Below are positions 590-63,985 of a DNA stretch of 64,000 nucleotides, in pieces. The notes beneath the pieces are model-generated. The model did not search any database. It saw nothing but the letters and a program-made list of their open reading frames with translations, and was not told the origin of the DNA. Position 1 is the stretch's first letter. Each line of letters starts with the position of its first letter. The position numbers and the translations under genes are program-made. The DNA comes from an uncultured Spirochaetaceae bacterium (GTDB lineage: Bacteria; Spirochaetota; Spirochaetia; Treponematales; Treponemataceae). The stretch is from the NCBI GenBank assembly GCA_902778325.1, contig CACYWZ010000006.1:1-64000 (forward strand), written 5' to 3'.

Positions 590-850
590 GCCCGTGTCAC
601 TATGACACGACGCGCTTTTTAAAAAAGAGAGCAATGTCATGGTGACACGAGCCGCCTCTGAGCAAAAACGACGCTCGTCACCATGACACGGGGTGTTTTT
701 TGCGAAAATCACTGCTCGTCATGGTGACACGACGTGTTTTTTGTAAAAGACAGTGAATGTCAAAATGACGAGGGGTGCTTTTTTAAAAAGCGGGCAAATG
801 TCATTTTGACACGGCTTTCAAAGCGTTCTGTGCGTGTCATTTTGAATTTT
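590..850. repeat. Tandem array A, 41-bp units with GTCA..TGAC dyads
   Basis: Six to seven units fill the divergent gap between the chemoreceptor fragment and the gene at 950. The GTCA core recurs at 596, 636, 677, 718, 759 and 800, with a last one at 836, so spacing is 40-41 bp. Each unit holds a hairpin of the form GTCA-nn(n)-TGAC, often extended to GTGTCA..TGACAC; the centre varies (CTA, TGG, CCA, AAA, TTT) while the arms are kept. T-runs follow the dyads in some units. No coding potential is seen. Confidence 0.9.
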
Positions 851-949
851 GCATTAAAAAGAAAAATTCAGTGCTTTATTTTGCGGTAAAATCTAAGATT
901 GGAATTCTTTTGCTAGATTTTTATTCTGAAACAACAGATAATATAGAAT

Positions 950-2368
950 ATGGGTTCTCAAGATAATTTTTCAACACAATTATTGCAGGCATTAGATGCC
1001 AAAGCCTCTTGGTTCGACACGGTGGCGCTGCCGAAAGTCCTCGAGAACTACCGTCTGCACTCTTCTTGCGTGCAAAACCTGCTGGGCGCTCTCATCAAGA
1101 AATCGATTGTAACGGCTGACCCGTACAAGCACGATAAAAAAATCTCCAACATCATAATCCCGGACAGCACTGAGTTTGCTGAGGGAGAGCGAGCGTCCGT
1201 CATAGGCTTGAGATTGTCTGACTACGACAGCATGCTCGACTTTTTGTGCAACTATTTCAAATTTTCTGTTGCGCACGTCGACACAAACCGCATTAACAAG
1301 CTTCTTGCACTTAACAACACATTTTTGTGGAATTCGTTCACGATAAACAATCCGAAGCCGAACACACGAGGGCTTGCGACTCTTGTGGCTCAGGCGAGGA
1401 ACGGCGCAGACCCTCTCACTCAAAGCCTGTTCAACGACAGCGTAAGCAAGTCTGCCCGTGCGATTGACGAGATTAACGTGACTCTCACAGAGCTTTCGCT
1501 TTTCCAGCGGGAGATGTACAAGGGACAGGTGCGAAAGAATGTCTTTGAGCATCCGGCGTTCAACAAAGAGCTCGCCTACAAGTCAAAAGAGTCGCTTTTT
1601 GAGGCGATAAAGAAACTTCTTCCGGGTCTTCTTGGAAAAAAGAGCATAAACGTTGAGCTTGTCAACGAGGTTGTCGAGGAAGAACTTGGCGCAAACAAAG
1701 AAAAACTGCGCGAAGAGGTTTTGAAAAAACTCGAAGTGAAGGTCGAGCGCAAGAAAAAGAAAGTCCAGAAGGTCGACACAAAAGAGATGATTCTTGACGC
1801 TCTGAGAACGCTCGGCGCGCTTTATCCGCAGCTGAACGCCGTCATTGAAAAGGTATCGTTCAACCACAACATTCTTCAAGGCGAAAAAAATACGTTCTTT
1901 GACAAGCTCAAGGAGATTTTCCGTCGCGCTTTCAATCTTAAAGAGCCGCCTGTCATTTATGAGATTATCGAGTTTGACCGCGCATCACAAAGGAAGCGCA
2001 AGGTTACGATAAATTATCACGACTTTTTGGCAAGTCTGAACCGCCGAAACAGAGTTTATGCTTCATTCTCGCAAAAGAACTCTCAAGGCTATCAGAGGGT
2101 TGCGAATATCGAAGAGGACAAAATCCTTGATTTCGTAAAAAAGCAATGCTCTGAATGTCAGGCTCTCACGGTGCAGCTCAATGCGCTCGACGAGTTTTTC
2201 AAAACCACTTGCCAGCCGAGCAACAAGGCAAGAATCAAGGGTATGAAAATGGACCTTGAGGCGATGAAAAACACGCTTGTAAACGTCAATCAAAAACGCG
2301 CTGAATACGTCTCTTACATAGAAGAGCAAGCGCAAATGAAAAAACTTGGAATTACAGATGATGAATAA
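950..2368 (+). CDS. Conserved spirochaete protein of unknown function (possibly DUF5312)
   Basis: A 472-residue soluble protein with no signal peptide or membrane segment. Its most notable region is a lysine-rich, probably helical stretch around residues 225-285 ('EELGANKEKLREEVLKKLEV', then RKKKK). It resembles a spirochaete-only family I know as DUF5312, but I cannot confirm that without a profile search. No good Shine-Dalgarno sequence precedes the ATG; the bases just upstream are AT-rich (GATAATATAGAAT), so the start is less certain. The stop overlaps the start of the peptide-binding protein gene, suggesting co-transcription. Function unknown. Confidence 0.8.
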   Translation: MGSQDNFSTQLLQALDAKASWFDTVALPKVLENYRLHSSCVQNLLGALIKKSIVTADPYKHDKKISNIIIPDSTEFAEGERASVIGLRLSDYDSMLDFLCNYFKFSVAHVDTNRINKLLALNNTFLWNSFTINNPKPNTRGLATLVAQARNGADPLTQSLFNDSVSKSARAIDEINVTLTELSLFQREMYKGQVRKNVFEHPAFNKELAYKSKESLFEAIKKLLPGLLGKKSINVELVNEVVEEELGANKEKLREEVLKKLEVKVERKKKKVQKVDTKEMILDALRTLGALYPQLNAVIEKVSFNHNILQGEKNTFFDKLKEIFRRAFNLKEPPVIYEIIEFDRASQRKRKVTINYHDFLASLNRRNRVYASFSQKNSQGYQRVANIEEDKILDFVKKQCSECQALTVQLNALDEFFKTTCQPSNKARIKGMKMDLEAMKNTLVNVNQKRAEYVSYIEEQAQMKKLGITDDE

Positions 2369-3941
2369 ACCTTTTTTGAAAACGACTGCGCTTCTTTTTG
2401 CGCTTCTTTTTGCTTCAACTGCCGCGCTTTTTGCAGAGGAAGCAGAAAAGAGCGACAAACTTGAAAACCAGCGCACTTTGAACATGATTGATTTTCTGCA
2501 CGATTATGATTTGAATCCGCACACTTCAGCGTATACATCAGAAGCGCAGATTATGACGGGGCTTTACGAAGGGCTTTATTCCTACAATCCCGTGACGCTT
2601 GAGCCAGTTCCGGCTCTTGCAGAGTCGTTCAAAGTATCGAGAAGCAGAGTCCGCTGGACATTCACAATCCGAAAAAACGCAAAGTTTAGCGACGGCTCTG
2701 CAATCACGGCGCAAAGTGTGCGTGAATCATGGCTGAACCTTCTTGCAAATCCAGCGGCATCTTATTCATCGCTTTTGGACTGCATTGATGGCGCTGAAGC
2801 CTATCGCACAGGAAGCGGAAAGCGCGACAGCGTCGGGATTGTGGCAAAAAACGCCTCGACTCTCATCGTAACGCTCAACACGCCAGCGCCACACTTTCAG
2901 CGCCTTTTGTGCCATCACGCGTTCTCGGTTGTTCCTGCAAAGCCAAATGTCTACTCAGGCGCATTCACGCTCAAATCATACGAAAACGGCGTTTTGGAAC
3001 TTGTGAAAAACCCGAAATATTGGGACGCGGCTTCAGTGGCGCTTCCAAGCATTCATATCGAGCAGTCAGGCGACCCTGACGAAAACACTTACGCTTTTAA
3101 CACAGGAGCGGCGGACTGGGTGACAGGCAATATCGAGCCGAAATCACTCATAAACTCAAGCGCAGTCTGTATGGCAGCGGAATACGGAACGCAATTTTTG
3201 TTCTTCAAGTGCGAAAATCAGCCGTGGAACACAGCAGAGTTTCGACAAGCACTCCTTGCCGCAGTTCCATGGGCTGAGCTCAGAAGCAAAGCTGTCGTCG
3301 CAGCAGAAACGCTGATTTATCCGCTTCCGCTTTATCCAAGCGTCACAGGCTACAAAGACACAGACGCCGACGAAGCGCTGGACTTGATGAAAAAAGCGAG
3401 AGCAAAAGCTGGAATCCCAGAGAAAAAAGAAATCGAAATCATTATCGCGCTCAGCGAGGAAGAATCAGAAACACGCTTCTATGATATGCTTTCAGCAGCA
3501 TGGAAGCCACTCGGCGTCAAAGTAACAGCGCAGAGAACACCTGTTGAGAGCTATCTTTCAAACATCAAAAACTGGAAGGCAGATGTTTTCTTGTACTCTT
3601 GGATTGGAGATTTCGCCGAACCGCTGGCGTTCCTTGAGTTGTTCCGAACGGAATCAAAACTCCGCGAAACAACGTGGACATCAAAAGAATACGACGCTCT
3701 TCTTGATGAGGCGTCAGGCATTTCGGACACAGCAGAGCGCTACAAGGTCTTTGCAAAAGCGGAGCAGCTGTTGCTCGACGAGGCGGTGATTATGCCAATC
3801 TCGCACCCAGTGAGTTTCCACATTATCGACACAAAAGTTGTCGGCGGCTGGTATTCAAACGCTCTCGACATTCATCCGTTCAAGTATCTGTATCTCAAGA
3901 AACCGCAGATTACAGTACAAAATCTCGTTTTTGCAAAATAA
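2358..3941 (+). CDS. Oligopeptide ABC transporter substrate-binding protein
   Basis: A periplasmic solute-binding protein of the SBP_bac_5 (OppA/DppA) family, about 527 residues, usual length. A type I signal peptide (MNKPFLKTTALLFALLFAS, cleavage after ..ALFA) has no lipobox cysteine. Family sequence follows: 'VPALAESFKVSRSRVRWTF', 'FSDGSAITAQSVRESW' and 'YWDAASVALP'. An open frame extends to a TTG at 2346, but adjacent ATGs at 2358/2361 start the signal peptide properly. The start overlaps the stop of the upstream gene. No permease or ATPase genes are adjacent, so it must work with a transporter encoded elsewhere. A terminator follows directly. Confidence 0.9.
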   Translation: MMNKPFLKTTALLFALLFASTAALFAEEAEKSDKLENQRTLNMIDFLHDYDLNPHTSAYTSEAQIMTGLYEGLYSYNPVTLEPVPALAESFKVSRSRVRWTFTIRKNAKFSDGSAITAQSVRESWLNLLANPAASYSSLLDCIDGAEAYRTGSGKRDSVGIVAKNASTLIVTLNTPAPHFQRLLCHHAFSVVPAKPNVYSGAFTLKSYENGVLELVKNPKYWDAASVALPSIHIEQSGDPDENTYAFNTGAADWVTGNIEPKSLINSSAVCMAAEYGTQFLFFKCENQPWNTAEFRQALLAAVPWAELRSKAVVAAETLIYPLPLYPSVTGYKDTDADEALDLMKKARAKAGIPEKKEIEIIIALSEEESETRFYDMLSAAWKPLGVKVTAQRTPVESYLSNIKNWKADVFLYSWIGDFAEPLAFLELFRTESKLRETTWTSKEYDALLDEASGISDTAERYKVFAKAEQLLLDEAVIMPISHPVSFHIIDTKVVGGWYSNALDIHPFKYLYLKKPQITVQNLVFAK

Positions 3942-3980
3942 CTTTTTGCCGTCTGTTGCTCAATAGACGGCAAAGTTTTA
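3942..3980 (+). terminator. Rho-independent terminator after the peptide-binding protein
   Basis: GCCGTCT (3948-3954) pairs with AGACGGC (3965-3971) across a ten-base loop, extended by flanking T/A bases, and is followed by a short T run. It begins right after the stop at 3941. Confidence 0.75.
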
Positions 3981-3984
3981 TAAT
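3956..3984 (+). promoter_or_regulatory. Probable ackA promoter inside the terminator region
   Basis: A perfect TATAAT at 3979-3984 lies 17 bp downstream of TTGCTC (3956-3961). The -35 is weak. The leader would be about 30 bases and carries AGGGGAA before the ackA ATG. The promoter overlaps the loop and 3' arm of the upstream terminator. Confidence 0.5.
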
Positions 3985-4020
3985 ATGGCTTTCGCACAAC
4001 TTTCAGTTTAGGGGAATAAA

Positions 4021-5355
4021 ATGGTAATTCTTACATTGAACTGCGGTTCTTCTTCCGCAAAGTATCAGGTTTATGACTGGGACAACAAAGATGTACTCGC
4101 TACAGGTGTTGTTGAGCGCGTAACACAGGACGGCTCTGTTATCACACACAAGCCAAAGGGAAAAGACAAGTTCGTTCTCGAAAGCCCTTGCCCAACACAC
4201 AAAGAAGCTATCGAGCTTATTTTGAACGCAATCACAGACAAAGACCATGGCGTTATCACAGATATGAGCGTTATCGGTGCTGTTGGACATCGCGTTTTGC
4301 ACGGCGGCGACAAGTTCACAAAGAGCGTCAAAGTTACTCCGGAGGTTCTCGACGGATTCCGCTCTGTTATCGGATTGGGCCCTCTTCACATGCCTGCAAA
4401 CATCATGGGCATTGAGGCTGCTCAGAAAGTTTTGCCAAACGTTCCGCACGTCGCAGTTATGGACACCGCTTGGCACCAGACAATGCCGCCGTCATCATAC
4501 CGCTATGCAATCCCGAAAGAATGGTATGAGAAATACGCAGCACGCCGCTACGGCTTCCACGGAACATCATTCCTCTACACAGCAAAACGCGCTGCTGTTC
4601 TTTTGCACAAAGAGCCAAAAGACACAAACATCATCATCGCACACGTCGGAAACGGTGCTTCAATGTGCGCTGTAAAGAACGGCTGCTGCTTCGACACATC
4701 AATGGGTATCACACCTCTTGAAGGCTTGGTAATGGGAACTCGCTGTGGCGATATGGACTGCGCTTTGCCGTTCTACATCATGAGAGAGACTGGAATGAGC
4801 GCGGCTGAGATGGACAACGCTATCAACAAGAAGAGCGGACTTCTCGGAATCACTGGAAAATACACAGACCGCCGCGACGTTGAGGAGATGGCAGCAAAAG
4901 GCGACAAAGACTGTCAGCTCGCAGTTGATATGGAATGCTACCGCTTGAAGAAGTACTTCGGCGCATACATGGCAGCAATCGGTCCTGTTGACGCAATCGT
5001 CTACACAGCAGGCGTCGGCGAGCATTCACCGCTCATTCGCGCAAAGGCTCTTGAGGGCTTGGAATGGCTCGGCGTTAAGATTGACCCGAAAAAGAATGCG
5101 CTTGCAAACACAGGAAACGCAGAAACTTGCATCAGCGCAGACGACAGCAAGGTCAAAGTTTTCGTTATCCCAACAGACGAAGAGCTTGTTATGACAGAAG
5201 ACGCGTTTGCGATTATGAACGGAACTTACGATGTTCACACGAACTTCAAGTACAGCTTCCAAGACCCGTCCTATCGCAACAAGGCTCGCGAAGAAGGCTT
5301 GAAGAAAGACCTTGAGAAGCACCCAGACCTCGCTTCTATCATCGTACGCCCGTAA
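4021..5355 (+). CDS. ackA: Acetate kinase
   Basis: Converts acetyl phosphate and ADP to acetate and ATP, the final energy-yielding step of mixed-acid fermentation in the cytoplasm. The 444-residue product has the N-terminal phosphate-binding signature NCGSSSAKY (residues 7-15), the second acetate-kinase signature RYGFHGTS, '[11 protein letters not shown]', 'MGTRCGD' and 'GVGEHSP'. It is somewhat longer than the usual ~400 residues because of a C-terminal tail after the last conserved block. AGGGGAA precedes the ATG. It is a single-gene unit between two terminators; pta is not in this window. Codon choice looks highly adapted, fitting strong expression. Confidence 0.97.
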
Positions 5356-5373
5356 CCGTAAAAGGCTTTTTGA

Positions 5374-5405
5374 AGTCCCTGTCGTTTTTGGCAGGGATTT
5401 TTTTT
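5374..5405 (+). terminator. Rho-independent terminator of ackA
   Basis: TCCCTG (5376-5381) pairs with CAGGGA (5392-5397), separated by a T-rich loop and followed by eight T. Confidence 0.9.
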
Positions 5406-5422
5406 ATGAACACAAAATCTTT

Positions 5423-5560
5423 TTCGCGCAAGCCGTGAATAAGCATTTGAAGCGCAAATCCATTTCGCGCAGGTCGTGAATAAGTATTTGAAGCGCAAAT
5501 CCATTTCGCGCAAGCCGTGTGTAAGTATTCGAAGCGCAAAACCATTTCGCGCAAGCTTCG
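5423..5560. repeat. Tandem array B, exact 41-bp units
   Basis: The block TTCGCGCAAG starts at 5423, 5464, 5505 and 5546, exactly 41 bp apart, giving three full units and a partial fourth. Units end with GAAGCGCAAA and differ by a few substitutions (TTTGAAG versus TTCGAAG). The array lies between the converging ackA and lipoprotein genes. Confidence 0.93.
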
Positions 5561-5578
5561 TTTTCTCAAAACACCTCT

Positions 5579-6827
5579 CTAAAACTCACGGATTGCACAA
5601 ACATAGCAGGAAAGAATAGAAACACCTTGCCCGATAGGCGTTCCACCTCCAAACCTTACATTCATCGAAACTAGTTGATGATCAGCAGAGTCTTTTGCAT
5701 CTGTAAGATTTGACGAATGGAAGTGATTTCCTCCTGAACTCGTATCCAATTTTGTGCCGTTTACTTTTTGCAAAATTGTATTTATAACTTGAGATTCGTT
5801 ATCAACGTCGTACAGATTTGTTCTTAAAGTCATCAATTCTGCGGCAGTTGGCATATACCAGCCAGTTTCATACTCTTCTGGAAGAGAATACTTTGTTCCG
5901 TAATTGTTTACCCACGCAAATGCAGGATATTCTCCAGCAGCATCTTTTTGCCTTATCAAAGCCCAGTTGTCGCTTCCGTTTAAATCACCTTTCAAAAAGT
6001 ATGAGTTATTGTTGTATGATACATGAGCTTCACTAGGTTCTTCATTTACCTCATAAGCCATTATGTCGTTGAATGTGTTTTTTAATTGAGTCACATCAGA
6101 TTCTAAGTTTTTCGCCACAGAACCAGTTGATGCCCAATCATACAGACCGCCATTTGCACTTTCTTCAGAACTGTTGTGAATACCGATTCCGAGAATTCTT
6201 GCACCAAGAGAATCAGATGATGTTCCAGCATAGAAAATTACCGCAATGGCAGAGGCTTTCTGCTCGTCAGTCAGCGTCAAATCTGCGCTGTATTCAGTCG
6301 CAGAGCCGTCGCTGAAAACGATGTCACCGACAGCATTCGGTTTTTGCTTTGTGCCGATAAGGTTTTCAGCAGCAGTATCGTCTATATCTTCATAAGGCAA
6401 AAGCACAAGAGCAAGAGCATTCTCGTCCTCAGCTATCGTGATTTCATCAGTTTCGCCCTTGTACAAAATGATATTTTTGTCGTTTTCTTTTCTGAACGCA
6501 GTGCCTTCTGCTTTGACCACTGTGCCAACAGGGATTTCCTCGAACAAGACCTTCAAGCCGTCTTCAATCGCAACAGTCTTTTTGTCAATGTAAGCACCTT
6601 TTAACTCGACAGTCAAAAACAACTCATCTGCATTATCAAATCCCCCCCCCCTCTTCATCAATAACAGCGCGAGAGTGAGCAAGCGATTTTGATTTTATTT
6701 GCTTTACCATGTCGCTCGTGATTGTGAAAGAAAGTGAGCCTGTGTCATTACTTTGGTTCAGAAGTGAGCAAGACAAGAAAAGCAGCGAAATCAAAGCGGA
6801 TAATGCAAAAAAAGCCTTTTTGGTCAT
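5579..6827 (-). pseudogene. Lipoprotein with DUF1566-like C-terminus, frameshifted at a G10 run (possibly phase-variable)
   Basis: Two frames make one gene. From ATG 6827 (AAGGAG just upstream) the first encodes a lipoprotein signal MTKKAFFALSALISLLFLSC, then about 40 residues, and stops just after ten G (plus strand C run 6642-6651). The second frame continues from the tract to 5579 and ends with 'WYMPTAAELMTLRTNLYDV' and 'CYVCAIREF', which resembles the Lcl/DUF1566 C-terminal fold common in treponemal lipoproteins. Nine (or twelve) G would join the frames as ..EEGGGFDNADEL. As given, the gene is OFF. Whether this is slipped-strand phase variation, decay or a base-calling error cannot be decided from one sequence. 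The intact product would be a cell-envelope lipoprotein. Confidence 0.82.
6642..6651 (-). repeat. Homopolymer tract, G10 on the coding strand
   Basis: Ten consecutive C on the plus strand lie inside the lipoprotein coding region, about 60 codons after its start. The length puts the two halves of the gene out of frame by one base. Confidence 0.95.
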
Positions 6828-6890
6828 AGATTTCTCCTTATGGATTTTTTGGGAAAGTGTGCGATTATCATATTCGCTTCCATAAGTCTT

Positions 6891-6918
6891 ATTATAATGT
6901 GGTTTGCCCTCTTTTCAA
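6891..6918 (-). promoter_or_regulatory. Promoter of the frameshifted lipoprotein gene
   Basis: On the minus strand TTGAAA (6918-6913) is followed after 16 bp by a perfect TATAAT (6896-6891). The predicted leader is about 57 bases and ends with AAGGAGAAATCT before the ATG at 6827. A strong promoter argues the gene is still meant to be expressed. Confidence 0.75.
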
Positions 6919-8378: not shown

Positions 8379-8590
8379 GATTCCGAAACGAGTTCTCAAA
8401 TGACAATTGCCTCGCTGGGGCAACTTTTGCCTTTCGAACATTTGTTAAAAGCCCCGCTGAGCCTCAGCAAAGAAAAAAACATTTGTTCAAAGCTCCGCTG
8501 GAGTGAATTTTGCACTTTAAACACTTGTTCGCGCATCCGCTGAGCCTCAGCCTTAAAACTAACATTTGTTACTTTCAACGCAATTGTTAC
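8379..8590. repeat. Tandem array C, 41-bp units, with a fragment of the dispersed element
   Basis: ACATTTGTT-like blocks start at 8438, 8479, 8520 and 8561, exactly 41 bp apart. Between them lie different hairpins: GCCTCGCTGGGGC, GCTGAGCCTCAGC (twice) and CTCCGCTGGAG. The stem sequence differs from unit to unit while the fold is kept. The left edge (8379-8404, 'GATTCCGAAACGAGTTC') is a piece of the dispersed element found whole at 60.5, 61.5 and 63.7 kb. The remainder up to the terminator at 8653 shows nothing else. Confidence 0.85.
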
Positions 8591-16546: not shown

Positions 16547-17223
16547 TTAATCACTCTTTGAAGGAAGTGACGAATTCCAGCGTTTCACGGATTTTTCAAA
16601 CTCCACGGCAAGATTAGCGTACTTTTCGCTCTCGCTAATCGAAAGAGCTGAAAGAAGCGTTACCACAGAGCCATTGACCAAGGTTACCGCTTCGTTTCGT
16701 ATCGCCGTCGCATTCCTAAGAGAAGCAACAGCGCTTGCGTCCTGGGAAATCTTTGCAGAAGCGATTTCGAACTCCTCTTCGGTTTTCTTGACGAGAGCGA
16801 CAAGCTCTTTTGCGCCAAGGATTTGCGAGATGGCGTTCTGTGCGTCTTCCTTCTCCAAATCTTTCAAAAATGAGTTCATCAAGCCCGTTTGTGACGAGTA
16901 TTTGACGTCGAGCATTTTCGTTCCGTACGGCTCAAAAATCGAAAGCAGCAGCTTTGCGGCCGCCACCTGCTTTTCAAAGCCGTCGGGCAGAGCAACGTTT
17001 CCGTTAAGGACCGCATACAGGCGACGGACGGCACTGTCGCGCTCGCTATCCCCGCCTCGGTGAGTTCTGCGGAAAGGAGGGCAAGCGTTGAAAAGTTCGC
17101 GTCAAGAAGAGCATTTCTCTCTTCTTTTGGAACATTTTCCATCGCTTGGGCATACAACTTCAAGATTTCAATCAAAAATCCACTAAAAGCAGAGTTTTGA
17201 ATGTCTCTTTTAATCTTTTTCAT
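16547..17223 (-). pseudogene. DUF6261-like protein, frameshifted
   Basis: Two overlapping frames make one protein of about 225 residues. The first half begins at ATG 17223 (GGAGG upstream): MKKIKRDIQNSAFSGFLIEI.. to '..LSAELTEAG'. The second half reads 'DSERDSAVRRLYAVLNG', then 'ALPDGFEKQVAAAKLLLSIF' to the stop at 16547. They join if the four-C run near 17050-17053 had one more base. Length and helical pattern suggest the DUF6261 family, which has no known role. It could be a decayed gene, a sequencing error, or an expressed frameshift; nothing here marks a programmed slippery site. Confidence 0.7.
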
Positions 17224-17324
17224 CTTTCGATGCCTCCAAAATCCATACTAGCGCCCTGTAATTTTTATTGCAATACGTTTTTTTTCGCTTTTTTTCTCAA
17301 AAACTCCCAAAAAAACATCTGGAA

Positions 17325-17562
17325 AGCCCGCCAGTAACTCGGAACGGCGTTTCCATAAACATGGAAAGCTCGCCAGTGACTCGGAACGGCGTTTCCATAA
17401 ACATGGAAAGCCCGCCAGTGAGTCGGAATGGCGTTTCCATAACTGTGGAAAGCCCGCCAGTGAGTCGGAACGGTGTTTCCATAAACGTGGAAAGCCCGTC
17501 AGTGACTCGGAATGACGTTTCCATAAACATGGAAAGCCCGCCAGTGACTCGGAACGGCGTTT
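17325..17562. repeat. Tandem array D, exact 42-bp units
   Basis: The block GGAACGGCGTTTCC (or GGAATG..) starts at 17341, 17383, 17425, 17467, 17509 and 17551, exactly 42 bp apart, six copies. Each unit is GGAAAGCCCGCCAGTGACTC, then that block, then ATAAACAT. GGAA/TTCC arms close a short hairpin. Because 42 is a multiple of three, frames stay open through it (a 14-residue repeat, ESPPVTRNGVSINM), but there is no start signal or gene context. The rest of 17224-17633 holds only AT-rich sequence and the terminator. Confidence 0.94.
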
Positions 17563-37627: not shown

Positions 37628-38060
37628 TCACTAAATTTTGAGCGAGGTCAAAAAAACAAAAAATTAGCCCGCTCAAAATTTAGCGAGCAAGAAAATTTGA
37701 AAAGACGAACTCACACTAAATATTGTGAGCTCAAAAAAAGAAAAGTCGGACTCGCATTAAACAATGTGAGCAAGAAAAATTGAAAAGTCGGGCTCACACT
37801 AAATATTGTGAGGTCAAAAAAAGAAAAGTCGAACTCACATTAAACAATGTGAGCAAGAAAAATTGAAAAGACGAGCTCACATTAAATATTGTGAGGTCAA
37901 AAAAAGAAAAGTCGAACTCGCATTAAACAATGTGAGCAAGAAAAGAGAAAAGTCGAGGTCGCTCTAAATAGAGTGAGAGCAAAAAAGCGAAAAGTTCGCT
38001 CGCTCTATTTAGAATGGGCTTGAAAAAAGCAAAAAGATGAGGTCGCTCTAAATAGAGTCA
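37628..38060. repeat. Tandem array E, alternating 41/42-bp units with changing hairpins
   Basis: About ten units separate cheY from the next receptor gene. Reference T positions 37717, 37758, 37800, 37841, 37883, 37924, 37965, 38006 and 38049 give steps of 41, 42, 41, 42, 41, 41, 41 and 43. Units carry hairpins: CACACTAAATATTGTG alternating with CACATTAAACAATGTG, then CTCTAAATAGAG near the end and CGCTCAAAATTTAGCG at the start. Stems change on both arms together. Linkers alternate between GGTCAAAAAAAG and GCAAGAAAAATT, so the true period is a two-unit dimer in the middle. No other terminator follows cheY. Confidence 0.93.
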
Positions 38061-42964: not shown

Positions 42965-42971
42965 ACCAATT

Positions 42972-43212
42972 GCCCGTCGGAACGTTCGGACAGCGTTTTG
43001 GGATTTGGAAAATGCTTGTCGGGACGTTCGGTGAGCCTTTTGGGATTTGGAAAATGCTTGTCGGAACGTTCGAGCGACCTTTTGGGATTTGGAAAATGCC
43101 CGTCGGAACGTTCGGACAGCCTTTTGGGATTTGGAAAATGCTCGTCGGAACGTTCGGACAACCTTTTGGGATTTGGAAAATGCTTGTCGGAACGTTCGGT
43201 CAGCGTTTTTCC
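42972..43212. repeat. Tandem array F, exact 42-bp units
   Basis: Six copies: the ACGTTC core of GTCGGAACGTTCGG recurs at 42982, 43024, 43066, 43108, 43150 and 43192, always 42 bp apart. GAACGTTC is an 8-bp palindrome. Units end TTTTGGGATTTGGAAAATG. Frames through it stay open only because 42 is divisible by three. The remainder to 43311 is AT-rich leader. Confidence 0.94.
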
Positions 43213-50749: not shown

Positions 50750-50965
50750 GCCCGTGGCAAAAAAACTCATTTTTACTCACGGGCATTCGCCCAAAGCACC
50801 ATTTTTTCAAATTTGGCTCTTCGGGCATTTGCCCAAAGCCAGCTTTTGGCGATTTTGTCTTTCGGGCATTTGCCCAAAGCACCATTTTTTCAAATTTGGC
50901 TCTTCGGGCATTCGCCCAAAGGCAGTTTTTGGCGATTTTGCCTTTCGGGCACTCGCAAAATTGCG
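50750..50965. repeat. Tandem array G, alternating 42/41-bp units with GGGC..GCCC hairpins
   Basis: GGGCATTTGCCC (or GGGCATTCGCCC) starts at 50781, 50823, 50864, 50906 and 50947: steps 42, 41, 42, 41. A more degenerate copy precedes. Linkers alternate between CACCATTTTTTCAAATTTGG and a CCAGCTTTTGGCGATTTTG type, so the repeat is a two-unit dimer. It lies in the divergent gap between the glycosidase and the fusion gene. The rest of 50584-51047 is AT-rich and carries TGTATACT at about 51010 and AGGAG before ATG 51048. Confidence 0.93.
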
Positions 50966-53391: not shown

Positions 53392-53477
53392 ACGACCCCA
53401 TAGGGTCGTGCCGTGCGACCTTATAGGGTCGTGCAATCCGACCTTATAGGGTCGCACACATCTACCGCATAGGGTAG
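53392..53477. repeat. Tandem array H, four 23-bp hairpins (also terminators)
   Basis: Hairpins start at 53393, 53416, 53439 and 53462, exactly 23 bp apart: CGACCCCATAGGGTCG, CGACCTTATAGGGTCG (twice) and CTACCGCATAGGGTAG. In the last, G-to-T in one arm is matched by C-to-A in the other. The array lies between converging genes and probably ends both transcripts. Confidence 0.93.
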
Positions 53478-58303: not shown

Positions 58304-58409
58304 TTTATGTGCCCCTTAAATATCTTGATAACGATTTTCATTCTACCAAACTCGCCTATAATTTTCTACAGAATTTTTCCGATTGTTGACTTTTCGTTTT
58401 TTTGGCGTT

Positions 58410-58683
58410 CAGAAGAGTTCCGAACGCTGTCTCTTCATTTTTTTGCCCTTCACAAGTGTTCCGAATGCTATCTCTTCATCTTTTTGCCCTTCACAAGTGT
58501 TCCGAACGCTGGCTCTTCATCTTTTTGCCCTTCGGAAATGTTCCGAACGCTCTCCTTTCATCTTTTTGCCCTTCACAAGCGTTCCGAGCGCTGTCTCTTC
58601 ATCTTTTTGCCTTTCGGGATTTTTCCGAGCGCTCACTTTTCATTTTTTTGCCTTTCGGAAATGTTCCGAGCGCTGTTTTCAAA
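58410..58683. repeat. Tandem array I, exact 41-bp units
   Basis: Seven copies: TTCCGA starts at 58418, 58459, 58500, 58541, 58582, 58623 and 58664, always 41 bp apart. The sequence before it alternates among CACAAGTG, TTCGGAAATG and TTCGGGATTT; in the second form TTCGGAA pairs with TTCCGAA, in the first CAC pairs with GTG. The common filler is TCTTCATCTTTTTGCC. It fills the gap between def and the VOC gene; AT-rich sequence only from 58304 to 58410. Confidence 0.94.
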
Positions 58684-58686
58684 ACT

Positions 58687-59070
58687 TCAAACTGTCAGCT
58701 CGATAATATTTTGCTCAATCGCGACAATTGCGCTCTCGTAATATCCGTCGCCCGTGGTTCGAGGCCCGCTTTGAACACAAAATCCCGCACGCGAAAGTTT
58801 CTCCGTCAACTTGTCCACAGCCTCCGCGCTTCCAAGACTGAACGCCAAATGCGCCCAGCCAGTGCGAAACGGCTCTTTTTCGCTGTCCACGACTTCAGGG
58901 CGTGTCATAATCTCAAGGCGAGCGCCTGAATCAAAAGTCAAAAAATATGAGCGAAATCCAGTCTTTTGATTGAAATATCCGTCATTCGCCTTTGCGTCCA
59001 AATACTCAACAAAAAAATCTTTCGCTTTTTCCAAATCGCAAACATAAAGCGCAACGTGTTCAATTTTCAT
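58687..59070 (-). CDS. VOC-superfamily (glyoxalase/bleomycin-resistance fold) protein
   Basis: 127 residues. Paired beta-alpha-beta-beta-beta modules: 'IEHVALYVCDLEKAKDFFVE' with metal His, 'FRSYFLTFDSGARLEIMTRP' with Glu, 'GWAHLAFSLGSAEAVDKLTE' with His, and 'YYESAIVAIEQNIIELT' ending in Glu. All four metal ligands appear present. GGAGGA before ATG 59070 fixes the start over an in-frame ATG 18 bases earlier. Substrate unknown. Confidence 0.88.
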   Translation of the reverse strand: MKIEHVALYVCDLEKAKDFFVEYLDAKANDGYFNQKTGFRSYFLTFDSGARLEIMTRPEVVDSEKEPFRTGWAHLAFSLGSAEAVDKLTEKLSRAGFCVQSGPRTTGDGYYESAIVAIEQNIIELTV

Positions 59071-59091
59071 TTTTCCTCCATTCGTCATGCG

Positions 59092-60108
59092 TCAAAAATA
59101 TTCTTGCTCAAATGAGATTTTTGATTTCACAAAACTGTGGTGAACAACTTCAAGAGAGCGCAAATCAAGCGCGGTGAGCCAAAAATCCTCGCTTGTGCAG
59201 GCGCTGCTTTCGCCAGAATTACCCATTCCGATAAAAACAAGATACGGCTTTGAGTCTTTTTCAACGATGTCGAAACCCCACTGGACACTCGAAAGCGCAA
59301 AAAGTTCTTTTTCGTCCTCAAAAGATTTCCCGCTTGTTTTGAAAACTTCCCGCTCTCTTTTGAAGATTTTTATCGTGTAATTCGACGGAAGGCGTGCAAC
59401 GGAAGTCCAATAAAGTTCTGCAACGATTTTTTTGTCTTCGATTTCGCGCTCGATTTTTTGCACGTGGTCGCCAGAGATGCCCAAAAACGAATAGTCGAAC
59501 GCTGCCATTTGCTCGATTCTCTCGGCGCTAATCCATTGCTGTTGCTCATCTGTCAAATCGTAGCTGTAGCGGGAATGCGCCGAGGCGATTTTTCTCCACG
59601 CTCGATTTTTTGCGTCAAAGGAAAGCAGTTTGTATGAAGAAAGGCGCTTTGTGTCAAAGTCGCGCTCGATTTCAAGAAAAAGCGTTTCTTTTTTGTTCTG
59701 CACGGGATAAACCAAGCCGCACTCGCCTTTTGCGCCGTTCGCCGAAAAATAAATCTTCCACTTCTTCGCCTTTTTGTCAAAGCGGAAAATGCGAAAATAC
59801 GCAAAGCCGCCACTTCCTTCAAGGCTCATCATCGAAAGCATTTTGTCTTTTATGCCGTCAAGGTGAATCGGCGTGCAATAAAGGTTTTGCTTTTTGGTGA
59901 GCTCGACGAAATCGGGGTGGAACTCCTCTTTTTCGCTGTGCGGCGCGTCGATTGTGTTGTAATTCAATTCGCTCTCAAAATCCGCGTATGTTGTGTATTC
60001 GCTCTTTTTGACGACTTCAGCAAAATGCAGCACGTTAGGCACGAGCGACTTTGCGCTCAAAAGCGAGAGCGCAAGCATATAAAGCAGTGCAAAAAATATC
60101 TTTTTCAT
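59092..60108 (-). CDS. Exported protein of unknown function
   Basis: 338 residues with a signal peptide (MKKIFFALLYMLALSLLSAK, likely cleaved near LSA). The mature part looks beta-rich with many aromatic and charged residues ('GGFAYFRIFRFDKKAKKWKI', 'RYSYDLTDEQQQWISAERIE'). No family recognised. CGGAGGAAAA precedes the ATG, the same ribosome cassette as its neighbours. Confidence 0.78.
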   Translation of the reverse strand: MKKIFFALLYMLALSLLSAKSLVPNVLHFAEVVKKSEYTTYADFESELNYNTIDAPHSEKEEFHPDFVELTKKQNLYCTPIHLDGIKDKMLSMMSLEGSGGFAYFRIFRFDKKAKKWKIYFSANGAKGECGLVYPVQNKKETLFLEIERDFDTKRLSSYKLLSFDAKNRAWRKIASAHSRYSYDLTDEQQQWISAERIEQMAAFDYSFLGISGDHVQKIEREIEDKKIVAELYWTSVARLPSNYTIKIFKREREVFKTSGKSFEDEKELFALSSVQWGFDIVEKDSKPYLVFIGMGNSGESSACTSEDFWLTALDLRSLEVVHHSFVKSKISFEQEYF

Positions 60109-60129
60109 TTTTCCTCCGTTTTGCGAAAA

Positions 60130-60453
60130 TCAGTCGAAATAGCTGACTTCCGCTGATTTATAATTTCCGTTGTCATCAAAATAAATACAAAGCTCCCAGC
60201 CGCTTATAAAGCCGTCCGCTTTCAAGAAATACGAAATCTCTTTTTCAAGAACGCGCTCCTCCAATGCAGGACGACCGAGCAAAGACAGAACTTCGGTTTT
60301 GTTCGGCTTTTCCGCGTCCAGCTTGGCAATAAGCGAAGTCGTCATTTGGTAGCGGCTTTTGCCTTTCTGCCATTTTTGCGCGTCGAAGTCAATTTGTTTT
60401 TGGCACGCTGCAAAAATCACGCAAAATAAGAAAATCAAAATCAGTTTTTTCAT
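60130..60453 (-). CDS. Small lipoprotein of unknown function
   Basis: 107 residues: signal MKKLILIFLFCVIFAAC with lipobox FAAC (Cys17). Then 'KSRYQMTTSLIAKLDAEKPN', 'EVLSLLGRPALEE' and 'WELCIYFDDNGNYKSAEVSY', a layout like SmpA/BamE-type small lipoproteins, though similarity is only in pattern. CGGAGGAAAA fixes ATG 60453. Confidence 0.76.
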   Translation of the reverse strand: MKKLILIFLFCVIFAACQKQIDFDAQKWQKGKSRYQMTTSLIAKLDAEKPNKTEVLSLLGRPALEERVLEKEISYFLKADGFISGWELCIYFDDNGNYKSAEVSYFD

Positions 60454-60464
60454 TTTTCCTCCGT

Positions 60465-60556
60465 TTGTCATGCGTCATGCTGAACAAGTTTTCAGCATCT
60501 GTGTTTGCTGAGCGAAGTCGAAGCATGGATTCCGAAACGAGTTCGGAATGACGGGT
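60465..60556. repeat. Dispersed element, copy 1
   Basis: About 92 bp: TGTCATGCGTCATGCTGAAC, a TTCAGCA arm, TGTTTGCTGAGCGAAGTCGA, AGCATGGATTCCGAAACGAG, ending TTCGGAATGACGGG. TGCTGAA/TTCAGCA forms a hairpin. Its left end abuts the CGGAGG ribosome site of the gene at 60453. Confidence 0.92.
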
Positions 60557-60560
60557 AGTT

Positions 60561-60980
60561 TCATCTTTCCTCCATCTTTATTTGCAGTTTTTCATAAAAC
60601 CACGATTTTTCAAAATAAAAAATCGGGAATGTTACAAGTTCCAAAAACAAAAGCTTCAGTTTTTTCTTTGTTTTCTGCGAGAACAAAAATCCGCCCCGAA
60701 CACAAACCAGCATTGCCAGTTCGTCATCGCTGAGTTCCGTGCGAACAGCCCAGACAATCACATACTCAAACAAAAGCAAAATAATTGGAATAAGCACAAA
60801 CAGAGGCTTTTGCAAATACACATAGCCGCAGGCGATGAGCCACAACAGTGCCGTGTGAATCAGCGACAGGATTTTGTGAACGCGGCGCAATTTGCTCGTG
60901 TATTTTTCAAAAAAATACAAAACAATGTTCAAAAGCAAATATGCAAACACTATTTTTGCAAAATTATTTTCAATGTTCAT
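60561..60980 (-). CDS. Membrane protein of unknown function
   Basis: 139 residues with about three or four hydrophobic helices ('IVFAYLLLNIVLYFFEKYTS', 'IHTALLWLIACGYVYLQKPL', 'FVLIPIILLLFEYVIVWAVR') and a charged C-terminal third. No family recognised. Its start overlaps the stop of the gene at 60977 by four bases, so the two are co-translated. Confidence 0.72.
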   Translation of the reverse strand: MNIENNFAKIVFAYLLLNIVLYFFEKYTSKLRRVHKILSLIHTALLWLIACGYVYLQKPLFVLIPIILLLFEYVIVWAVRTELSDDELAMLVCVRGGFLFSQKTKKKLKLLFLELVTFPIFYFEKSWFYEKLQIKMEER

Positions 60981-61453
60981 TTTTCCACCCTCAAACTTTT
61001 GTATTGGATTGTCAAAAGAGCTGTTGATGAACGCCCGTGCTTTTGCTTTTCGTAATAAAAAAACACCAGCGAAAAATATTTTTTCCCAAACTCAGAATAA
61101 ATGTCCTCGTAGCCGTATTCTTTAGCAATCACGTTTTTATTTAAGCGCGAGATATGCCCATTCTGCTTGACGGAGTTGAACGAAACAATTTTTCCGCCGT
61201 CAAAAATCAGCCGCGCCGCCTCACCTGTTTGAGCCAAATTCAAATCAAAAATCACTTTGTTTCGTTCTTCGATTATTTTGAACTTTGAGTCGTGCAGGTT
61301 GTCATAAATCTTCAAAAGCTCACTTTCGGATTTTATCCGCTCAAAATATTCAGCCAAATCTTTTTGAAAACGCTCGTCGCCAAAATCAAGAAAATAATGC
61401 CGCAGTTTTTTGGATTTTCTGATGTTGCCGTGAGTCAAAAGCAAGTTCTTCAT
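60977..61453 (-). CDS. Hypothetical protein
   Basis: 158 residues, soluble, charged: 'LRHYFLDFGDERFQKDLAEY', 'NGHISRLNKNVIAKEYGYED', 'YFSLVFFYYEKQKHGRSSTA'. No family recognised. CGGAGGAAAAA precedes ATG 61453 and the dispersed element lies directly upstream. It overlaps the membrane protein gene downstream. Confidence 0.72.
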   Translation of the reverse strand: MKNLLLTHGNIRKSKKLRHYFLDFGDERFQKDLAEYFERIKSESELLKIYDNLHDSKFKIIEERNKVIFDLNLAQTGEAARLIFDGGKIVSFNSVKQNGHISRLNKNVIAKEYGYEDIYSEFGKKYFSLVFFYYEKQKHGRSSTALLTIQYKSLRVEK

Positions 61454-61464
61454 TTTTTCCTCCG

Positions 61465-61557
61465 TTTGTCATGCGTCATGCTGAACTTGTTTCAGCATCT
61501 GTGTTTGCTGAGCGAAGTCGAAGCATAGATTCCGAAACGAGTTCGCCAATGACGGGC
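61465..61557. repeat. Dispersed element, copy 2
   Basis: Same element as at 60465, in the same orientation: GTCATGCGTCATGCTGAAC to TTCGCCAATGACGGGC. Near-identical over its length. It abuts the ribosome site of the gene at 61453. Confidence 0.92.
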
Positions 61558-61561
61558 ATTT

Positions 61562-62251
61562 TCATTTTACATTTCTGAATGAAGTTCGTTTGTCAAACCC
61601 GTGGTTCACAGCCTTGTCAACGTCCGAAAGACCTTCGCTTTCAATGCTCACATCGTTTTTTGAAGCAAGCAGATACTCGTCAATTCCGCAATAAATCTCT
61701 TCGGGCGGAATAATCGAAGCAAAGCCCGCGCCGCGCAAAATCGGGATTGGACATCTTTCCAGCTCACCAGAAAGATTTAGAAGCGGACGAAAATTGCAGT
61801 TTGACAAATTCGCCTTGCGCCACTCTTCCGCCGAAAGTTTGTCCACCGCAAAAGCCCGAGAGTCGACCGTGTACAAATTCAGCGGCTCGCCTTTGTATTC
61901 GTACCATTTCCGCGAGCAAATCAATTCCATTGAAAAATCAAGAAGCAAATAATTTTCATAGCGGAGCTGCTTCAATTTTATCACGAAAAAGTTAAAACCT
62001 GCGGCAAGCACAATCAAAAGAAACGGTTCTCCGCTCTTTTTCTCCCACGAAAAAAAATTGTACGGAAAAAGCGGGATAAATCTCTTTTTCCCGTTGACAA
62101 TTCGATAGCAGCCGTCGCCACAATTGATTGCGTCGCAAAGAACTTTCTTTGAAAGAAGCACTGAACCGCGCCTGTCAAAAACAACTTCGTCATCGCCGTT
62201 CTGTTGCCAAAGATAATCGTAATAATCGTAGTTTCTGTCAATTATTTTCAT
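61562..62251 (-). CDS. Hypothetical protein
   Basis: 229 residues. One or two hydrophobic stretches ('FLLIVLAAGFNFFVIKL') but no clear signal peptide. It starts MKIIDRNYDYYDYLWQQNGD. A late block 'ILRGAGFASIIPPEEIYCGI' is distinctive. No family recognised. CGGAGGAGAA precedes the ATG. Possibly related to neighbouring small genes that react to envelope state, but nothing in the sequence shows that. Confidence 0.7.
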   Translation of the reverse strand: MKIIDRNYDYYDYLWQQNGDDEVVFDRRGSVLLSKKVLCDAINCGDGCYRIVNGKKRFIPLFPYNFFSWEKKSGEPFLLIVLAAGFNFFVIKLKQLRYENYLLLDFSMELICSRKWYEYKGEPLNLYTVDSRAFAVDKLSAEEWRKANLSNCNFRPLLNLSGELERCPIPILRGAGFASIIPPEEIYCGIDEYLLASKNDVSIESEGLSDVDKAVNHGFDKRTSFRNVK

Positions 62252-62277
62252 TTCTCCTCCGTTTTTATCTGTAACCG

Positions 62278-63618
62278 CTACAAATATCTTCCTGCCAGCT
62301 GCGCAATTTTGCCGACGAGTTTGTATGAGATTATTTTACACAAAAAATCAGTGAATTTTCCGTATTTACGATAAAACAAGTTGAATGTAAGATAAGCGGC
62401 TCTTTGCTCCTTGCAGTCGGGAAGCCGCTTCAAAATATTTTTGAGGCTGTAGACGTTGCGGTAAATCCAAAGATAGCCCTCGTACAATTCTTCTGCGCTC
62501 ATATTTTTGGGCTTATAAACAACGTGCGCCGTGTTATATTTTGAAAAATCCGTCGATGTGATTCTGTCCGCTTTTTTCAGTTCCTCGTAAACTTTCGTTC
62601 CGGGATATGGCGTGAGAATATGCGAGGTCACGGTTTCGATTTTGTTTTTTACAATCCAGTCCAGCGTCGTTTTGAATGTTTCCGTGCTGTCGCCGTCAAG
62701 CCCGAAGACAAAACTTCCGTGAATCATAATTCCGCGCTTGTGGATTTCAGAAATCGCGTTCTCATAGTTTTTGATGTTGTTCTGAACTTTATGCACGTTT
62801 GAAATGGACGAAGGGTTTATGCTCTCAAATCCGATGAAAAGACTTTTGCAGCCAGCTTCTTTCATCAAATCCAAAAGCTCGCCGTCGTTCGCGACATTTA
62901 TTGAAACAGCGGCATTCCACTTGATTTTTAAGGGCTTCAGCTCTTCAAGGAATTTTCTTGTCCATGCAGGATTCCCGATAAAATTGTCATCGATGAACAT
63001 TATGTGCCGCAAATTTATTTTCTTTATGTCTGCAAGAACATCATCAATATTTCGGTTTATGTATTTGTGATTTTTTGAGCTGTTATAGCAAAAATCACAA
63101 CGAAAAGGACAGCCCCTGCTTGTATGAACGATGTTCGTGTATAAATATTTGGATTTTTTTACAAAATCATAAGCTGGGGAAACTATTTCGTCCGCGCTGA
63201 AATTTTCTTTGCAACGGTAGATTTTCTTTAAGCTCTGCGTTTGCGCGTCTTTTATGATTTCTGGCCAAGTTCCTTCCGCATCCCCGATGCAGAGTGAATC
63301 AAACGCGTCTTGCGGAATAAAATCCGGCGCGCTCGTTATCTGGATTCCTCCCGCAACGACAGGAATTCCCTTTTCCCTGAACTTCCTGCTGATTTCAATC
63401 GCGCGGTTCAGAACATCAACCGTAACCGAAATGCCGACCAAATCAGGCTTGTCGTCAAAATTGATTTTTTCGATATTTTCATTTTCAAGAACAACTTTGT
63501 GATTGTCTTTTAGAATACTGACGATTGTAAGAAGCCCCAAAGGCGGTGCCATTCTGGCTTTTAAGCCCGTGTCCATCGGACGGCGCAGCATTTTGGGCTG
63601 GATGAGTTTTACGTACAT
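62278..63618 (-). CDS. B12-binding radical SAM protein
   Basis: 446 residues. The N-terminal cobalamin-binding-like domain (about 1-135; 'PPLGLLTIVSILKDNHKVVL', 'PDLVGISVTVDVLNRAIEIS', 'GIPVVAGGIQITSAPDFI') lacks the DxHxxG histidine. The radical-SAM core has the cluster motif CPFRCDFC (Cys170, 174, 177), then 'HIMFIDDNFIGN', 'CKSLFIGFESINP' and 'GIMIHGSFVFGLDGDSTETF'. Family members act as methylases or in hopanoid and lipid modification; the substrate is open. CGGAGGAAAAA precedes ATG 63618, again next to a dispersed element. Confidence 0.93.
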   Translation of the reverse strand: MYVKLIQPKMLRRPMDTGLKARMAPPLGLLTIVSILKDNHKVVLENENIEKINFDDKPDLVGISVTVDVLNRAIEISRKFREKGIPVVAGGIQITSAPDFIPQDAFDSLCIGDAEGTWPEIIKDAQTQSLKKIYRCKENFSADEIVSPAYDFVKKSKYLYTNIVHTSRGCPFRCDFCYNSSKNHKYINRNIDDVLADIKKINLRHIMFIDDNFIGNPAWTRKFLEELKPLKIKWNAAVSINVANDGELLDLMKEAGCKSLFIGFESINPSSISNVHKVQNNIKNYENAISEIHKRGIMIHGSFVFGLDGDSTETFKTTLDWIVKNKIETVTSHILTPYPGTKVYEELKKADRITSTDFSKYNTAHVVYKPKNMSAEELYEGYLWIYRNVYSLKNILKRLPDCKEQRAAYLTFNLFYRKYGKFTDFLCKIISYKLVGKIAQLAGRYL

Positions 63619-63629
63619 TTTTTCCTCCG

Positions 63630-63722
63630 TTTGTCATGCGTCATGCTGAACTTGTTTTCAGCATCTGTGTTTGCTGAGCGAAGCCGAAGCATGGATTTTG
63701 AAACGAGTTCGCCAATGACAGG
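63630..63722. repeat. Dispersed element, copy 3
   Basis: GTCATGCGTCATGCTGAAC .. TTCAGCATCTGTGTTTGCTG .. ending TTCGCCAATGACAGG. Same orientation and same relation to the downstream ribosome site as copies 1 and 2. Confidence 0.92.
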
Positions 63723-63754
63723 TGTTTTCAACAGGCTCAACCTCAATAAAAGCC

Positions 63755-63985
63755 GCCTTCCTTGCCGTAAGGATTCTGGCTTTTTTGAAATTTGGGCAAT
63801 CCTTATTGTAAGGAACGATGACTTTTTGGAAAACCGCGAATCCTCAAAATAAGGAAAGCCGACTTTTGCAAGGGCGATTTTCCTCAAAATAAGGATTTCT
63901 GGCTTTCTGCAAATCTGCCTTTCCTTAAAATAAGGAACGCCGTTTTTGGAAATTGCCACTTTCCTTATGTTAAGGAAAGCCCTAA
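63755..63985. repeat. Tandem array J, 40/41-bp units with TCCTT..AAGGA hairpins
   Basis: The CCTT arm starts at 63760, 63801, 63842, 63882, 63923 and 63963. Dyads are TCCTT-gccg-TAAGGA, TCCTT-attg-TAAGGA, TCCTC-aaaa-TAAGGA (twice), TCCTT-aaaa-TAAGGA and TCCTT-atgt-TAAGGA. Loops vary freely while stems stay. It may continue past the window. No gene is supported between 63619 and 64000. Confidence 0.9.

Follow-up and report, generated by a model that had tools for sequence, protein, structure and literature searches.

Nine intergenic tandem arrays, different in sequence and alike in spacing, occupy the 64,000-nucleotide stretch analyzed here (the window), which is the beginning of contig CACYWZ010000006.1 of an uncultured Spirochaetaceae bacterium. 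Arrays of this kind, in which the units recur every 41 or 42 bp, are real and far beyond chance in the source genome, where they form dispersed families, mostly with one paralog of the protein family DUF6261 (PF19775) per family. They lie 5' of DUF6261 genes in two phyla, Spirochaetota and Bacteroidota, and in one DUF6261 subfamily, the array sequence covaries with the N-terminus of the encoded protein. Together, these findings suggest that DUF6261 proteins bind the 41/42-bp arrays, which they would read through the N-terminus, as dimers; on the basis of these sequence comparisons, we assign this interpretation a probability of about 0.7.

DUF6261 genes and the arrays on their 5' side

The source genome (G000; 3.35 Mb in 173 contigs, with the window at the start of contig C6) belongs to a rumen-type Treponema, its acetate kinase being 96% identical to the Treponema ruminis counterpart. 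The sample analyzed consists of 61 stretches (1,131,425 bp), of which 704,000 bp were selected independently of array matches, the remaining stretches having been taken at matches of window array D or of another array-bearing contig; with about a third of the sampled bases chosen by hits, the array density is not a random estimate. Several of the genome searches described below cover the best-scored candidates per genome.

Among the paralog clusters formed by 951 open reading frames (ORFs) of this genome, DUF6261 is the one in which 7 of 7 members adjoin an array, all on the 5' side and each of another family; other clusters are less regular, with arrays beside 13 of 25 presumed chemotaxis receptors and 10 of 21 presumed leucine-rich repeat proteins. 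A profile search listed 28 PF19775 matches in G000, 28 of 28 above the Pfam cut-off of 27 bits; scores at individual DUF6261 loci were 160.5 (L311), 62.9 (L295), 155.5 (L335), 118.5 (L336), and 74.8 bits (L320). Across the genus, 22 of the 201 genomes have a match, with one or two matches in 12 of them and at least 17 in four; T. ruminis produced none in this search (the genome assignment is inferred).

The linkage of arrays to DUF6261 genes is recurrent and one-sided. A test for regular steps detected an array 5' of the gene at 51 of 57 DUF6261 loci and 3' of it at 1 of 54; for random G000 genes (300 drawn, 288 usable), the upstream side gave 43. Tandem Repeats Finder (TRF) reported an upstream array in 24 of the 28 DUF6261 loci of G000 and in 24 of 29 loci of other species, and a further batch added 13 of 16 loci, including those from G451, G416, G398, and G525, which represent three other genera of the family. 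The Bacteroidota sample comprises four loci. The DUF6261 locus of Parabacteroides distasonis carries an array of 4.0 copies of 42 bp, and that of Prevotella nigrescens, 3.1 copies of 41 bp that overlap the annotated start by some bases. At the DUF6261 locus of MT839608.1, a scaffold from the human gut, a 14-base dyad recurs at five sites, with 0 to 4 mismatches and spacings of 41, 42, 41, and 42 bp, phased dyads for which TRF listed no such repeat; the second gut scaffold, MT837725.1, has no array.

In subfamily A of DUF6261, the one nearest to the Pfam model, the protein varies little outside residues 5-11 and the tail; among its first 25 residues, entropy is highest at positions 7, 8, 10, and 11, and residues 12-18 are nearly fixed. 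The set used for comparing N-termini with arrays included 43 loci; an N-terminus was obtained for 41 of these (not for L359 and L370), and 36, from 10 genomes, also had a unit consensus (there was none at L315, L333, L353, L362, and L365). Because the consensus was built with the unit length set to 42 bp, it is no test of the period. Similarity between N-termini was correlated with similarity between units across the 36 loci (rho 0.53), a value reached in 0 of 2000 permutations and likewise in 0 of 2000 when permutation was confined within genomes. The identity of the protein body showed practically no correlation either with the array (rho 0.02; 120 pairs from 16 full genes) or with the N-terminus (rho 0.08; 120 pairs). 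Units associated with the same N-terminal class in different genomes were identical at 0.69 of positions on average (135 pairs), compared with 0.46 for units of different classes within one genome (63 pairs).

Four classes can be written as paired motifs, although they were written after the units had been seen: PLT[ST] N-termini go with GAG[GA]CCTC units (15 of 15), Y[VIL][GS]G with [GA]C[AG][AC][CA]AAATTC (9 of 9), IFLG[NG] with TCAAG[TC]G (6 of 6), and I[SA]LVN with TCAAATCGCATTTGA (2 of 2), and no class motif occurs in any of the three others. Units are partly alike between the ISLVN and IFLG classes (L329 and L331 vs L372-L375), whose N-termini have I-x-L in common and, for the most part, a final N, a likeness that might be a hint at the DNA-reading residues. 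The subfamilies differ also in spacing: in subfamily A, 15 of 18 loci step by 42 bp (two have no step, and the signal at L333 is weak), and the other DUF6261 loci step mostly by 41 bp, with some steps of 42 bp or mixed in G000. The association between N-terminus and array points to what may be an unstudied class of DNA-binding proteins. Separately, repeats of 69, 138, or 207 bp were observed beside several subfamily-A DUF6261 genes (L307, L308, L310, L311, L327, and L332), which we take to be coding repeats of BspA-like proteins.

Array families also go mostly with a single paralog each. A first sample gave 113 arrays in 43 clusters. In the full set, 135 arrays and 28 DUF6261 upstream sequences were grouped into 43 families, and the 28 loci are spread over 26 of these. 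Counting just those G000 loci at which TRF reported an array, 24 loci fall into 22 families and include 2 same-family pairs, whereas 24 random arrays would be expected to include 13.2 such pairs when drawn from all 135 arrays, 9.5 when drawn from the 81 in independently selected stretches, and 11.0 when drawn from the 70 of these that are of the 41/42 type; two or fewer pairs arose in 2, 9, and 1 of 10,000 draws, respectively. Of the 41/42-type arrays, 83 of 119 belong to families that include a DUF6261-linked member; for the independently selected stretches, the figure is 52 of 70.

In the open-licence literature covered, a single paper names the family, once, and neither a function nor a repeat association of DUF6261 was found there; nor did we find a title on arrays of this kind in the open-licence literature. 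Carriage by phages or plasmids was considered and rejected: two pattern scans of viral contigs revealed no relative and a phage search returned two unannotated faecal scaffolds; for plasmids, there was no match with a Treponema query, and a gut-scaffold query gave two Bacteroidota replicons.

Period, dyads, and placement of the arrays

TRF identified 221 clusters in the G000 sample, and the periods of at least 25 bp are not spread evenly: 134 of 155 such clusters are at 40-43, 81-84, 123-126, or 164 bp, the other 21 having periods of 36, 46, 63, 69, 102, 138, 207, or 471 bp. Below 25 bp, the periods are more scattered, the commonest being 23 (17 clusters) and 21 bp (15 clusters). Distances from a 16-base anchor to the best next copy were 41 (3996), 42 (4773), 40 (249), 43 (31), 39 (6), 21 (640), and 62-63 bp (252), with nothing between, a sharpness that is partly due to the preselection of arrays for such periods. 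Independently of TRF, the spacings between dyad centers peak at 41-42, 82-84, and 122-126 bp in G000, and no such peaks were found in 756 kb of relatives. TRF detected no 41/42 cluster in 80 named Treponema and Spirochaetaceae loci (the sole 83-bp cluster among these, L150, has merely 1.9 copies), in the sampled stretches of G001, G004, G015, G026, G033, and G036, or in 363 kb of G053, G176, G096, and G194.

The set of 135 arrays was assembled by selecting and merging clusters with 41/42- and 21-type periods, TRF arrays shorter than about 60 bp or of other periods having been dropped ahead of cluster merging; the coding array L262 was removed, and window arrays A, C, and I were added by hand. 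These arrays span 28,478 bp, all of it intergenic as far as simple ORF calling shows, and 81 of them are in stretches selected independently of array matches. For dyad and mismatch analysis, we required a dominant step of 40-43 bp, at least three units, and a consensus dyad, which left 98 arrays. Their unit steps are 40 (26), 41 (260), 42 (229), and 43 bp (4), with one double step of 84 bp; the mean step is near 41.4 bp, equivalent to four turns of about 10.35 bp.

An earlier note on this DNA, made from the letters alone, had claimed that, in several arrays, the arms of the dyads differ between units with the fold kept, and had put forward local amplification plus selection on spacing and on hairpins as a possible cause of the arrays. 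The part concerning spacing and helically phased sites is supported: in 84 of 98 arrays, conservation is higher in the dyad arms than in the spacers, and the phased dyads of MT839608.1 keep the spacing as well. The part concerning hairpins is not. Only 30 of 530 distinct deviating pair events in the 98 arrays are compensatory, and G-T and A-C mismatches in the dyads are balanced (104 vs 112; chi-squared 77.7 on 89 degrees of freedom), also on the coding strand of 44 arrays in tandem gaps (50 vs 43). With mismatches indifferent to strand and compensatory changes scarce, the claim of covariation is not upheld. Two mechanisms suggested in that note, a nucleoid or topological protein (taken here as one blind to sequence) and a copying mechanism with a fixed step, are not supported: the arrays group by sequence, and many of the groups go with a single DUF6261 paralog. 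Judged by their structure, the arrays also differ from clustered regularly interspaced short palindromic repeats (CRISPR), where repeats are identical and spacers unique: here, whole units repeat, and the spacer columns are 0.805 conserved on average.

All types of intergenic gaps are used, as the earlier note had observed in the window: 63 of the 135 arrays are in tandem, 30 in convergent, and 28 in divergent gaps, and 14 are at stretch ends. Array-free gaps of at least 60 bp are similarly distributed (204 tandem, 62 convergent, and 84 divergent), and this resemblance led us to reject a promoter-only or terminator-only role. One strain comparison was made, between G000:C25 and a contig (L226, G184:C247) that is filed under another species, is 98-99% identical to G000, and is probably mis-binned. 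One array was identical in the two and the other had an 82-bp gap, which was not counted as unit loss because the G184:C247 contig ends inside that array.

All nine arrays described in the window are present (Table 1). At score 40, TRF reports six of them (B, D, E, F, G, and H). The units of the remaining three, A, C, and I, have diverged too far to be listed, and these arrays were checked by hand. Measured on conserved words, all steps are 40-42 bp, except for the last step of A and one of E; for the latter, anchors selected from a longer list (37717 to 38049) give 41, 42, 41, 42, 41, 41, 43, 41, and the start of the array is placed at 37685 rather than at 37628 as in the earlier note. The exact periods reported previously hold for B, D, and F, and so does the alternation in G and, for the most part, in E; C and I are not exactly 41 bp.

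Table 1 Tandem arrays and the DUF6261 gene in the window.
Feature	Coordinates	Strand	Description
Array A	590..850		dyad TGTCA-N3-TGACA; steps 40, 41, 41, 41, 41, 36; checked by hand
Array B	5415..5556		41 bp x 3.5 (TRF); steps 41, 41, 41
Array C	8438..8580		steps 41, 42, 41; checked by hand
DUF6261 (PF19775) gene	16547..17223	-	Pfam match of the body, E 6e-10; PF19775 match at 16607-17050
Array D	17320..17562		42 bp x 5.8 (TRF); steps 42 x5; ~100 bp upstream of the window DUF6261 gene
Array E	37685..38058		TRF; steps mostly alternating 41/42; ends ~25 bp 5' of the ATG of a chemotaxis receptor gene
Array F	42971..43209		42 bp x 5.6 (TRF); steps 42 x5; immediately after a terminator-like hairpin (by eye)
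Array G	50780..50956		TRF; steps 42, 41, 42
Array H	58369..58676		41 bp x 7.5 (TRF); steps 41 x6
Array I	63760..63985		dyad TCCTTAAAATAAGGA; steps 41, 41, 40, 41, 40; checked by hand

The unit sequences, previously described as unrelated, indeed differ from one array to another, save for the clustering of G with H, but each of the nine arrays belongs to a family of 2 to 19 members (counting DUF6261-linked sequences; under a stricter cut, B and H stood alone). Five of them match a DUF6261-linked array elsewhere in G000: A resembles the array upstream of L302 (69% over 172 columns, E 4e-10), B that of L297 (74% over 141 bp, E 3e-20), C that of L286 (81% over 103 columns, E 4e-19), E that of L294 (77% over 239 columns, E 9e-46), and I that of L305 (72% over 98 columns, E 2e-7), whose upstream stretch, in turn, resembles those of like genes in G107, G176, and G416. 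The E-values were scaled to a genome-sized search, and reversed controls gave no matches. Array D, which adjoins the DUF6261 gene of the window, is matched 35 times in G000 but in none of 38 relatives; with 18 sampled arrays, the D family is the largest one. Array F belongs to a family of 5, and G and H to a joint family of 14, in neither of which a DUF6261-linked member was found. An Rfam scan of the window produced no match.

Other repeats were seen alongside the 41/42-bp arrays. A second class has a period of 21 or 63 bp, two turns in the first case, with dyads such as TTCCTTAACGTCAAGGAA (L043:8005-8069, L233:10072-10262). In an orthologous gap, an array of this class has 9 units in Treponema zioleckii, a species outside the set of 22 genomes that gave a DUF6261 match (the genome assignment is inferred), and 3 in G000. 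None of 12 arrays of the 21-bp class is linked to DUF6261, and no family recurs among ten of their neighbors, apart from two SH3 proteins. The 21-bp array at L043 (~8070) and L233 (~10262) is adjoined by a dispersed element, TGTCATTCCGAA...TTCGGAATCCGTGCTTCGGCTACGCTC, and BLAST detected stretches similar to it near window positions 60474, 61475, and 63640. Short dyad arrays with a period of 23 or 46 bp, which is not a whole number of turns, occur at window positions 53393-53454 and at L009:2258, L030:6131, L021:7069, and L042:12659, and are a possible third class.

A model for DUF6261 and its alternatives

Under the model that we favor, each DUF6261 paralog would bind the dyad of one array family as a symmetric dimer, with the choice of the dyad set by a short N-terminal segment (residues 5-11 in the best-resolved subfamily). 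Because the dyads recur every 41-42 bp, that is, every four helical turns, bound dimers would lie on one face of the DNA and could touch one another, which would permit cooperative binding. An array 5' of a DUF6261 gene might let the gene respond to its own product (autoregulation). Where a genome has many paralogs, additional arrays of a given family would have spread into gaps of every orientation; the most likely role of these dispersed arrays is to structure or insulate the chromosome, not to act as ordinary promoter operators.

Several observations weigh against this model. TRF reported no array at 13 DUF6261 loci (L283, L298, L301, L304, L315, L316, L321, L324, L333, L348, L352, L353, and L336), although L283 does have 41-bp steps; the single DUF6261 gene of G176 has a weak upstream signal (L324), and there is no array in the 100 kb sampled from this genome. 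No DUF6261-linked relative was found for 36 of the 119 sampled 41/42 arrays, nor for F, G, and H in the window. The DUF6261 gene of the window, which lies beside an array of the largest family, looks broken or mis-sequenced, given that its start and body are in different frames; either the gene is broken and its arrays have survived, or there is a sequencing error. In a Pfam scan of five DUF6261 proteins, only DUF6261 itself was above the cut-off, with no DNA-binding domain, and the family profiles retrieved no homolog of known structure; NCBIfam and PADLOC scans showed nothing of note, and a single-sequence model of the C-terminal window fragment was all helical, at a mean confidence (pLDDT) of 53, too poor for use. 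At L369, one of four loci outside the classes, an FVPSH N-terminus is combined with an array of the YVGG class. In the other subfamily, where L299, L316, and L337 entered the comparison without an N-terminus, like upstream stretches across species go with like N-termini (for example, L305, L324, and L325), but the bodies are alike too, so that binding cannot be separated from descent. Finally, in G018, G021, and G167, which have one or two DUF6261 genes, the one array queried (L322) turned up nowhere but at the gene within the 40 candidates scored per genome, whereas in G000, G134, G211, and G133, arrays are also located away from a DUF6261 gene; from this comparison, it looks like the gene with its own array is the basic unit and the dispersed arrays are an elaboration. 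A different dispersed repeat of about 25-110 bp (L322:1166-1282) accounts for most of the matches, which number 36 in G021, 34 in G167, and 14 in G214.

The confined distribution of the L322 array bears also on an alternative that we consider unlikely, namely, that DUF6261 is a new repeat-mobilizing protein that multiplies and disperses the array upstream of its own gene, in the manner of the REP-associated tyrosine transposases (RAYT) of repetitive extragenic palindromic (REP) sequences. One gene per repeat family, dispersed copies, and lineage-specific explosion all parallel what is reported for RAYT and REP (PMC2817692), and PLTS-type arrays are present on contigs without a DUF6261 match in G134 (two), G211 (one), and G133 (one), with more such places, judged among the DUF6261 matches listed, in G081, G082, and G213. 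Dispersal of this kind would have to be reconciled, however, with a protein family in which no nuclease or transposase family exceeded the cut-off in the proteins scanned, with arrays confined to the 5' side, and with the same spacing in two phyla, for which dispersal supplies no reason. Similarly doubtful is the possibility that the array is a cis element of a third factor, with DUF6261 not binding at all and the N-terminus and array covarying as co-inherited neighbors while the rest of the gene recombines. The N-terminus is physically adjacent to the array and the bodies are shuffled relative to the N-termini, as the low correlation between the two indicates; given this adjacency, part of the covariation could be co-inheritance by linkage. 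Linkage alone leaves unexplained the variability of residues 7, 8, 10, and 11 next to the nearly fixed residues 12-18, the match between subfamily and period (42 or 41 bp), and the existence of 22 array families for 24 paralogs.

We regard as very improbable a role of the arrays as RNA or single-strand hairpins, that is, transcribed leaders, terminators, or processing sites. Most units do contain a dyad, and array E ends near a start codon; against this stand the balanced mismatches, the scarcity of compensatory changes, and the lack of an Rfam match in the window, as well as the number of arrays in convergent gaps (30 of 121, compared with 62 of 350 array-free gaps). The least credible explanation, hardly worth entertaining, is that the arrays are neutral minisatellites generated by slippage, or an assembly artefact. 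Unit number does vary at the orthologous gap of the 21-bp class, but neutral slippage is hard to reconcile with the concentration of long TRF periods at one value or its multiples, with peaks of dyad spacing that do not depend on TRF, with a spacing shared by two phyla even where the spacers have diverged, or with 5'-only linkage to one gene family.

If DUF6261 proteins do bind these arrays, a protein family of unknown function in Spirochaetota and Bacteroidota would acquire a concrete, testable job. The natural series of near-identical proteins in which a short N-terminus is paired with a known DNA site would be material for a recognition code, and a genome rich in repeats that are alike in period and not in sequence would be accounted for, in that the spacing may be a property of the protein fold and the sequence that of each paralog. 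A more far-reaching proposal, which we offer tentatively and at somewhat less than even odds, is that DUF6261 is a new architectural DNA-binding family with a swappable N-terminal reader of about seven residues, each paralog tiling its own phased array and, where a genome has many of them, a private set of arrays along the chromosome, in parallel, crosstalk-free networks that organize or insulate the nucleoid. Within the same tentative proposal, a readable code would pair xLPLTS with CCGAGGCCTCGG, xYVGG with GAATTTGGTGCACCAAATTC, and xIFLGN with TTCAAGTGCCACTTGAA.

Comparison with known systems

Two known systems come closest to the DUF6261 arrangement. In the REP/RAYT system, the gene for the protein lies beside its own family of palindromic repeats, the cognate repeats are dispersed between genes, gene and repeats co-evolve, and abundance is species-specific (PMC2817692). 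The DUF6261 repeats are likewise dispersed and co-evolve with the gene. There are differences, though: the DUF6261 proteins scanned contain no Y1 domain; the array is one-sided, as opposed to a RAYT gene flanked on both sides by inverted repeats; and, unlike REP sequences and bacterial interspersed mosaic elements (BIME), the DUF6261-linked repeats are arranged head-to-tail at 41/42 bp. The Y1 (HUH) transposase family PF01797 has 0 matches in G000, and 4 of the 17 genomes searched have one, 3 of these over the cut-off. With no PF01797 match in G000 and one-sided arrays, we reject an identity with REP/RAYT.

At each locus, there is a resemblance to autoregulated regulators that have tandem operators, such as Arc and MetJ, which are ribbon-helix-helix repressors. 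As in these, the dyad sites of DUF6261 are spaced by whole helical turns and located 5' of the gene, and the site goes with a short N-terminal segment that is variable and in which variable and hydrophobic residues tend to alternate, a resemblance that is suggestive only. DUF6261 departs from this type in that no Pfam DNA-binding family was over the cut-off and no ribbon-helix-helix domain was recognizable in the five proteins scanned. It also departs in scale and placement: one genome contains as many as 28 PF19775 matches, the arrays have from about 2 to 20 units, and the dispersed arrays extend into gaps that have no promoter.

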